Of a stretch of 10,573 nucleotides of DNA, positions 1 through 10,573 are shown in pieces. The DNA is from Spirochaetaceae bacterium. GTDB lineage: Bacteria; Spirochaetota; Spirochaetia; Treponematales; Breznakiellaceae. The notes below the pieces were generated by a model. The model searched no databases. It had not been told where the DNA came from and saw only the letters and a list, made by a program, of their open reading frames with translations. Made by a program: the position numbers and the translations under genes. Positions within the stretch are counted from its first letter, which is position 1. Every line of letters begins with the position of its first letter. The stretch is taken from positions 1-10,573 of the forward strand of contig JAISOO010000159.1 in NCBI GenBank assembly GCA_031275595.1. The letters run 5' to 3'.

Positions 1-116
1 TTGCATATATATGCAAAAAATCCTCGATTATCGGGCTCCTTTATGCAGTTTGCAGGGTATAAAAATTCACTTTTGTGAATTTTTATACGATTTTGCGCTG
101 AAGCGCAACAAACTGC
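1..116 (+). repeat. Structured repeat A, copy 1 (cut by window start)
   Basis: Positions 11-116 match 2294-2399 with only two differences in 106 bases (positions 53 and 68). Three nested or adjacent stems are visible. A hairpin TTGCAT/ATGCAA (1-6 with 11-16) has loop ATAT, and its outer part is cut off by the window edge. An outer stem GCAGTTTG (45-52) pairs with CAAACTGC (109-116). It encloses a 13-bp AT-rich hairpin (58-70 with 75-87, loop TTTT) and a TTGCGC/GCGCAA hairpin (93-98 with 103-108, loop TGAA), forming a three-way junction. It is non-coding. It may be a REP/MITE-like dispersed element or the 3' untranslated part of an upstream transcript. The family name is mine. Confidence 0.85.
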
Positions 117-215
117 TAGGGACAGGGCCGGATGGGGTCTATTATGCTCAAAAAGGGGATTAACCGCAAGGTCCCTTCAGCGAATTTTTTGTAAAACCAC
201 CGCTATTTTTGAGGT

Positions 216-242
216 TTTCCCAAAACTTCAGTTTTTGGGAAA
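216..242 (+). repeat. Hairpin repeat B, copy 1 (TTCA loop, bulged T)
   Basis: An 11-bp stem (216-226 with 231-242) carries one bulged T at 236 and is closed by the tetraloop TTCA (227-230). The core AACTTCAGTTTTTGG recurs in the same orientation at 2511-2539 and 10305-10329. No T-run follows, so it is not a textbook intrinsic terminator. It lies about 50 bases upstream of the promoter of the ABC exporter. Confidence 0.8.
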
Positions 243-2200: not shown

Positions 2201-2257
2201 GACCCCGCAAACACGGGATCGCCGGATATGGCCCGGAAACCCAACCGGAGTTTCCCG

Positions 2258-2399
2258 AGGAGCCTGTTGCACTTGTGGATTTTTTGCATAGACATGCAAA
2301 AAATCCTCGATTATCGGGCTCCTTTATGCAGTTTGTAGGGTATAAAAATTTACTTTTGTGAATTTTTATACGATTTTGCGCTGAAGCGCAACAAACTGC
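2258..2399 (+). repeat. Structured repeat A, copy 2 (complete, about 142 bases)
   Basis: This copy shows the whole fold. Domain 1 is a nine-pair stem (2258-2266 with 2315-2323, including one G-T) enclosing a perfect 13-bp hairpin (2277-2289 with 2294-2306, loop AGAC). Domain 2 is GCAGTTTG (2328-2335) with CAAACTGC (2392-2399) around a 13-bp hairpin (2341-2353 with 2358-2370, loop TTTT) and a TTGCGC/GCGCAA hairpin (2376-2381 with 2386-2391, loop TGAA). Relative to copy 1, the C-to-T change at 2351 turns a G-C pair into G-U in + strand RNA but would be an A-C mismatch in minus-strand RNA. The loop of the first hairpin differs between copies while its arms are kept. It starts 58 bases after the exporter stop codon. 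Confidence 0.85.
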
Positions 2400-2510
2400 G
2401 AGGTTCCCCCAGGCAATTTAACCACGAACAAACCCGGGGATTGTATATGGCGGTTAGGGGGTTCCCCCTGGGGGCCCTTTCGCGGCATCAAATTCTGAAA
2501 GCAGATGAGG

Positions 2511-10278: not shown

Positions 10279-10304
10279 CGCTGCTTTAGCGTACCCGAGG
10301 GGCT

Positions 10305-10329
10305 TTCCTAGAACTTCAGTTTTTGGGAA
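10305..10329 (+). repeat. Hairpin repeat B, copy 3, in the rbsC-binding-protein gap
   Basis: The stem runs 10305-10314 with 10319-10329, with loop TTCA (10315-10318) and a bulged T at 10324. The two arm differences from copy 1 (C to T at 10309, A to G at 10311) both become G-U pairs in + strand RNA. It lies 26 bases after the permease stop and could protect the upstream message or help set different levels for the membrane and binding-protein genes. No T-run follows. Confidence 0.75.
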
Positions 10330-10451: not shown

Positions 10452-10573
10452 ATGAAAAAATTGTTTTTAGTGGTTCTGTGCCTTATGGTCGCAGTTTCCG
10501 GTATGGTATTCGCCAGAGGCGGAGCCCAGGGGGGGGGGGGGGGGGCCCGGGCCGGGGGCGGAAACAAAAAGTT
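10452..10573 (+). CDS. Start of secreted (sugar-)binding protein, cut by window end
   Basis: Only about 40 residues are visible. ATG 10452 has AGGAGG (10441-10446) five bases upstream. Residues 1-21 (MKKLFLVVLCLMVAVSGMVFA) are a Sec signal peptide with a clean VFA cleavage site, followed by a glycine-rich stretch coded by a G homopolymer. The position after the ATPase and permease makes it the expected periplasmic substrate-binding subunit (RbsB-like). The mature domain lies outside the window, so the family is inferred from context only. The glycine-rich segment may be artefactual. Confidence 0.7.
   Translation, partial: MKKLFLVVLCLMVAVSGMVFARGGAQGGGGGARAGGGNKK
10529..10545 (+). repeat. Run of 17 G inside the binding-protein coding sequence
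   Basis: Seventeen consecutive G encode five glycines just after the predicted signal-peptide cleavage site, followed by more G/C-only sequence to about 10560. The reading frame is open at this length; a change of one or two bases would shift it. It is the only such tract in the window and lies within 50 bases of the window end. Confidence 0.9.

Follow-up and report, generated by a model that had tools for sequence, protein, structure and literature searches.

Repeat A, a hairpin-rich repeat of a treponeme family, has ends like those of IS1182-type insertion sequences and is very probably a MITE

The window analysed here, a stretch of 10,573 nucleotides from a Spirochaetaceae bacterium (contig JAISOO010000159.1), carries two copies of a structured repeat, designated repeat A, and a neighbouring gene that we take, by our own reading, to be MMPL-type. 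The features of the repeat are collected in Table 1. Two - strand ORFs of at least 60 aa overlap the edges of repeat A in the window, and none lies wholly inside the element. When positions 2258-2399 were folded with RNAfold, the energy was -64.8 kcal/mol, whereas shuffles averaged -29.5 (z -8.9) and 0 of 200 of them folded as well. An earlier note on this DNA, made from the letters alone, had proposed a structured two-domain repeat, and this proposal is upheld by the fold and by the dozens of copies found among related genomes, which also settle the question of a chance origin for the window's two copies. The two hairpins that it placed in the three-way junction of domain 2 were recovered, at 14 and 5 bp instead of the 13 and 6 bp claimed. 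The copy at the window start is 96.6% identical to element positions 27-142 (4 of 116 bases different), and the differences claimed between the copies were all seen: by eye, the first loop accounts for two of them and the edge of the second outer stem for a third, while the fourth is a C/T difference by which a G-C pair of the 14-bp hairpin becomes G-U. A second short repeat, built around a AACTTCAGTTTTTGG core, is present at three places in the window (210-238, 2506-2534 and 10298-10326), and sequences like it adjoin repeat A copies in L023 and L041. The window also has a G run in coding sequence near the start of its last ORF (10529-10545), and two broken IS1182 transposase copies (L377 and L383) have C runs at their start; these runs are either hypermutable tracts or assembly artefacts.

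Table 1. Positions of repeat A and its parts in the window
Feature	Position	Strand	Remarks
Complete copy of repeat A	2259..2399	+	141 nt without flanking dinucleotide; ends and domains all present; CGAG on either side
Domain 1	2258..2323		9-bp outer stem 2258-2266/2315-2323 enclosing 13-bp hairpin 2277-2289/2294-2306
Domain 2	2328..2399		9-bp outer stem 2328-2336/2391-2399, closing a three-way junction
Inner hairpins of domain 2	2340-2353/2358-2371; 2377-2381/2386-2390		14-bp and 5-bp, respectively (RNAfold)
Left terminal inverted repeat	2259..2274	+	GGAGCCTGTTGCACTT; similar end 62-67 nt before IS1182-type transposase genes
Right terminal inverted repeat	2384..2399	-	GCAGTTTGTTGCGCTT on the - strand
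Left flanking dinucleotide GA	2257..2258		Putative target duplication, within C-GA-G (CGAG 2256-2259)
Right flanking dinucleotide GA	2400..2401		Putative target duplication, within C-GA-G (CGAG 2399-2402)
Second copy of repeat A	1..116	+	Element positions 27-142; cut by window start; TA (117-118) in CTAG at right

The distribution of repeat A was followed among related genomes. The MMPL-type gene led to 19 related loci, including MAGs labelled Treponema sp. and Spirochaetaceae bacterium, several of whose isolate codes presumably stand for termite guts, and BLAST found repeat A in 11 of the 14 genomes reached in this way. A covariance model built from 37 copies detected the repeat in 39 of 58 sampled genomes of the treponeme family of G005, with the highest copy number, at least 54, in G060. 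In a phylum-wide sample, the model matched 3 of 198 genomes (G005, G038, which is also part of the family sample, and G324, a borderline match with E 7e-4), under stricter filters that scored the best 15 candidates per genome and may let low-copy genomes escape. No match to repeat A was found in the plasmid and phage collections, and no match to its right-end 22-mer in viral contigs. Numerous copies are found at the ends of contigs, where a repeat that breaks assemblies would be expected to lie, and repeat A may also explain contig breaks in termite-gut treponeme assemblies, in which contigs often end inside copies. A literature search that included T. primitia and T. azotonutricium found no paper on repeat A, which does not prove its absence from print.

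Copies defined by their ends were compared in order to characterise the termini and the target. False matches, edge copies, nested copies and copies without four flanking bases were left out before counting (among them L011, one L154 match, one L051 match and L114), as were four copies overlapping better-scoring ones (L129, L006, L305 and L307), giving a set of 153 in which distorted copies may remain. These are 109-196 nt long, 116 of them 138-143 nt, and the repeat thus has the size (70-300 bp) and the lack of coding capacity of a MITE. It also has the imperfect terminal inverted repeats of a MITE, CTAG-SAGYYTGTTGCRC, with CTAGSAGYYTGTTGCRC at either end; copies begin CTAG[G/C]AGCCTGTTGCAC and finish GCGCAACAAACT[G/C]CTAG. 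The dinucleotide next to the element is preceded by C in 138 copies and followed by G in 135, with CTAG on both sides in 64. The left and right dinucleotides are identical in 100 of the 153 copies compared to 76.5 expected (0 of 20,000 shuffles) and differ in 53; in the set prior to removal of the four overlapping copies, the count was 101 of 157 with 77.4 expected. Among the 25 copies in which neither side is TA, the dinucleotides agree in 17, compared to 7.4 expected (0 of 20,000 shuffles), the matching ones being TG (10), CA (3), GA (2), TT (1) and GG (1). A reverse-complement relationship gave a weaker result (85 versus 75.2 expected; 111 of 20,000 shuffles), so direct repeats are the best fit, and target bases are directly repeated on both sides as in other MITEs; a duplication of exactly two bases is the length that the flanks suggest.

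Other arrangements of copies bear on the same point. Tandem junctions with exactly 2 shared bp were found in nine distinct places (10 rows, as L131 and L216 are one place), a sharing that insertion of a new copy into the terminal CTAG of an older one would be expected to produce. Forms of 62 nt with internal deletions retain both ends, and L065 and L066 have the identical deletion at different sites. Domain 1 occurs by itself with TAG ends in L045 and, among the matches listed, also in L101 and L137. A clean empty site was not found; the candidate, L251 compared with L034 (a single CTGG in L034), is a weak one, situated in repetitive sequence with 70-82% identity. In G003, a GC-rich palindrome occupies the first-hairpin loop in one orientation in L078, L083 and L086 and in the opposite one in L084, L088 and L089, and some of these copies have an extra small hairpin between domains 1 and 2.

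Gene context was examined with a simple in-house gene caller for those copies that have 700 nt or more on either side (98 of 153); 24 of these overlap a called ORF, partly through miscalls. Where a gene reads towards a copy, its stop codon lies exactly on the flanking TAG in 36 of 85 cases, while none of the 63 genes that read away from a copy has its start within 10 nt of it. Between co-directional genes, 27 copies have the same direction as the genes and 24 the opposite one, an even orientation. The respective counts before the four overlapping copies were dropped were 40 of 89, 0 of 65, and 29 versus 25. CTAG is scarce outside the masked repeat ends, with 231 sites in 1.10 Mb (loci of at least 2.5 kb), 134 of them genic, 75 intergenic and 22 at stops; the repeat A ends themselves may account for much of the total number of CTAG sites. 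The stop lies exactly on the flank in 33 of 74 non-overlapping copies compared to 22 of 97 non-genic background CTAG sites at stops, an excess that is indicative only, since each copy offers two flanks and masking was not the same in the two counts. The frequent position of copies at gene ends, with the stop retained, would follow from CTAG being rare and often containing a TAG stop codon, and target choice together with selection against broken genes can explain the stop-codon placement.

To find a partner, searches were run for Y1, DDE_3, DDE_Tnp_1 and IS630 transposases and for a Y1 relative. Multi-copy small Y1 (RAYT-like) transposases were seen in G002 (42 matches), G012 (22) and G057 (13), among L154-L179 and L320-L339. 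The lead, L203, came from DDE_Tnp_1: in this locus, CTAGGAGCCTGTTGCGCTTC lies 65 nt upstream of a transposase frame that is still open where the contig stops. This transposase, on which alone the family assignment was tested, matches NCBIfam NF033551 (IS1182) with 322.9 bits at a cut-off of 270, and has the Pfam domains DUF772 and DDE_Tnp_1. Its relatives, many of them remote, were found in 76 of 195 family genomes. In 13 of 16 distinct close relatives (at least 54% identity with the N-terminus aligned), a repeat-type end lies 62-67 nt before the start; the end is degenerate in L390 and L398 and absent in L370, L377 and L381. By comparison, none of the five remote relatives (24-27% identity) whose upstream sequence is long enough has such an end there, four of them showing loose 3-mismatch matches elsewhere, and in a sixth, L393, the sequence ends 28 nt before the match. 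A right end lies within 320 nt after the C-terminus in six of the eight close relatives whose sequence extends that way (L370, L371, L372, L374, L382 and L384), not in L388 or L394, and in none of four remote relatives. L372 has both ends, 1647 nt in all, with CTAG on either side and an interrupted transposase frame. Scans for transposon-sized pairs of ends yielded no transposase.

The ends of the insertion sequence and of the repeat were then compared directly. All 17 IS ends tested align in register with repeat ends over 15-33 nt (E 6.7e-6 to 0.15; 157 copies, the set prior to removing the four overlaps, with the outermost TAG letters of the copies added by hand as constants). Since only the terminal 15-33 nt are common to both, the hairpin-bearing core is the repeat's own and is unexplained by the IS. 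Sub-types agree, with GTGGGAC ends in both the repeats and the IS of G002 and GTTGCRC in G005. In G005 (L061/L397), an IS end abuts a repeat copy with TA common to both, and the left flank of the L370 transposase gene is an inverted repeat A half. Among the matches listed, transposase matches of at least 60% identity occur in at least 10 of the 39 genomes that the covariance model hit and in 0 of the 19 that it did not hit (Fisher p 0.022), counting short fragments, with the matches in G017 and G056 lying outside those listed. No relative of the L203 transposase was found in the draft assemblies of the copy- or end-rich genomes G003, G006, G007, G026, G041 and G055, which may reflect assembly loss, as multi-copy elements break contigs in drafts, or extinction of the partner. 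Overall, repeat A has ends in common with a transposase-bearing element, as MITEs do.

The pairing of the hairpins was examined across copies, the arm tests being made on the set prior to removal of the four overlaps. In the first inner hairpin, arms of the same copy match at 9.4 of 10 positions, compared to 7.1 with copies of differing arm, and the pairing is perfect over 10 nt in 79 of 136 copies compared to 1 of 1989 cross-pairings. In the second, the corresponding values are 8.4 and 6.2, with 12 of 144 perfect compared to 1 of 2160, in a test that depends on the chosen anchor (5 of 149 copies have no anchor). In an alignment with a structure of 27 pairs set by us, both sides change in 9 pairs and 92% of cells are paired, a result that 0 of 500 shuffles and none of the slides matched; the structure was derived from the same sequences, which favours it, and the inner hairpins were assessed by the anchored arm tests. 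Outer-stem pairs also covary; for the 5-bp hairpin, the share of paired cells is only 76%. RNAalifold on a MAFFT alignment gave 15 pairs and omitted the inner hairpins because they misalign. These results indicate that the pairing of repeat A is maintained by compensating changes, not visibly with a preference for one RNA strand.

Such a fold could belong to a structured non-coding RNA (a riboregulator, a terminator or an mRNA stabiliser) read from the + strand, its spread being driven by selection on that RNA function, as the earlier note had in part suggested. The strong fold and the compensating changes are in line with it, as are the G-U pairs (341 in + folds versus 220 in - folds of 81 distinct copies) and four terminator-like sites in 2180-2660 compared to 0.6 expected, all with 5-pair stems and one on the + strand inside the element (2306-2318). 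Against it, the same 81 copies have a mean fold of -55.5 on each strand, the + strand being lower in 39 and higher in 42 (Wilcoxon p 0.98); the mismatches of the first inner hairpin have no G-T bias (G-T 14, A-C 27), those of the second are balanced (G-T 24, A-C 23), orientation to co-directional genes is even, and the ends are those of a mobile element. The window contains no Rfam family at or above the gathering score, which also speaks against such an RNA; a lax search gave eight microRNA-family hairpins, all sub-threshold, with E up to 1. We therefore regard a + strand RNA as very unlikely, and the equal fold of both strands together with the even gene orientation favours palindromic DNA over one RNA strand. 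The earlier note's alternative of selection for, or mobilisation of, a structure fares better, the mobile-element ends speaking for mobilisation and the compensating changes for upkeep of the pairing. The covariance-model search that it proposed did return many copies with compensatory changes, without the one-strand pattern. It had also named two findings that would speak against its reading: a match to insertion-sequence ends, which was found (IS1182-type), and stem-breaking substitutions, which are not the rule. Template-switch repair of quasi-palindromes could keep the inner palindromes perfect without selection, a refinement that is compatible with a MITE. Arms change as wholes with few intermediate mismatches, many first-hairpin arms are perfect, and loop inserts occur in either orientation in G003 (L083 and L088), but the second hairpin is seldom perfect over 10 nt (by the anchor-dependent test) and the outer stems covary too; we consider such repair possible, if somewhat doubtful.

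Two other enzymes that might move the repeat were also considered. Two hairpins between TAG-containing tetranucleotides, and the existence of single-hairpin forms, resemble a REP/REPIN-type element moved by a REP-associated tyrosine (Y1) transposase, and neighbouring genes receive TAG stops, as is reported for GTAG REPs in the account of PMC3733652. A Y1 match is absent from the copy-rich genomes G006, G007, G008, G026 and G055, however, so that the RAYT expected of such elements was not seen there, and clear element ends lie near the Y1 gene in only 3 of 30 Y1 loci (L154, L168 and L176), a count that omits weaker 3-mismatch matches. Duplicated flanking bases also count against a REP/REPIN-type element, as Y1 transposition chemistry would not be expected to produce them, and we find this origin highly improbable. 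The CTAG target with a 2-bp repeat would suit a MITE of an IS630-type (Tc1/mariner-like) insertion sequence, IS630 being reported to prefer TA within CTAG in the title of a 1991 paper by Tenzen and Ohtsubo that PMC2170065 cites. In these genomes, however, IS630 matches are mostly fragments and are missing from G006 and G057, ordinary repeat ends lie inside a few IS630 loci (L353, L363 and L367) and in none were seen to bound the gene, L341 carries an unrelated inverted repeat, and identical non-TA dinucleotides are at odds with strict TA duplication. An IS630 origin thus seems extremely unlikely; an IS630 element with repeat A ends was not seen among the IS630 loci found.

Taken together, the shared ends, the matching flanking bases, the spread and the tandem copies lead us to conclude that repeat A is very probably a non-autonomous MITE, whose ends would be recognised in trans by the IS1182-family DDE transposase of an insertion sequence with the same ends. 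Judging from the sequence comparisons, this transposase probably moves repeat A into C-NN-G, mostly CTAG, with duplication of the two central bases, and an insertion at a CTAG-borne TAG would leave the gene its stop. The repeat A family belongs to a known kind of element, the MITEs, here with IS1182-type ends, and the IS partner is new, of a known family. Candidate roles for the inner palindromes are a cruciform recognised in transposition, a 3'-UTR hairpin on either strand and upkeep by template switching, and we favour a role at the DNA level. We would rather speculatively add that the hairpin domains could be working palindromic cassettes, each with its own terminal repeat, whose pairing is maintained by compensatory change on both strands because the IS1182-type transposase reads them as extruded stem-loops, an idea we think unlikely. 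If it were true, transposition could swap whole hairpins, in the way proposed for IS1272, and the element would evolve by hairpin exchange while docking harmlessly on stops. What looked like an orphan RNA has thus become a mobile element with a candidate enzyme. Its roughly 150 collected copies form a natural set with varying palindromes and kept pairing, which opens two questions to study: whether DNA hairpins are read by transposases of the IS1182 family, and how a repeat that inserts at CTAG stop codons can multiply while leaving genes intact.

Repeat A has counterparts among known systems. Short elements with an IS1182-family partner are described in Methanosarcina acetivorans, where the MITEs of ISMac2 are 160 and 169 bp long and present in 14 and 7 copies (PMC3852290). 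They are archaeal, the description available makes no mention of a two-domain architecture, and the likeness to repeat A is by that description only. IS1272 of Staphylococcus, counted in the IS1182 family by PMC5678879, belongs to the same transposase family as the partner of repeat A; in that account, stem-loops are central to its transposition model, and IS1272 reportedly takes the place of target stem-loops without duplicating the target, unlike repeat A, whose copies are flanked by short direct repeats. With the GTAG REPs and REPINs, as described in PMC3733652, repeat A shares palindromic units that stand singly or in pairs near gene ends and often supply TAG stops. It differs from them in having CTAG in place of GTAG, in its terminal inverted repeats, which it shares with an IS that encodes a DDE transposase, and in the five high-copy genomes without a matching Y1 transposase. 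RUP, NEMIS and Nezha are bacterial MITEs named in PMC3733652. With bacterial MITEs in general, as outlined in PMC10969869, repeat A shares a length of 70-300 bp, inverted ends, the lack of coding capacity and stable transcript folds, and it is set apart from the others, as far as those outlines go, by its two independent outer stems and its IS1182-type partner.
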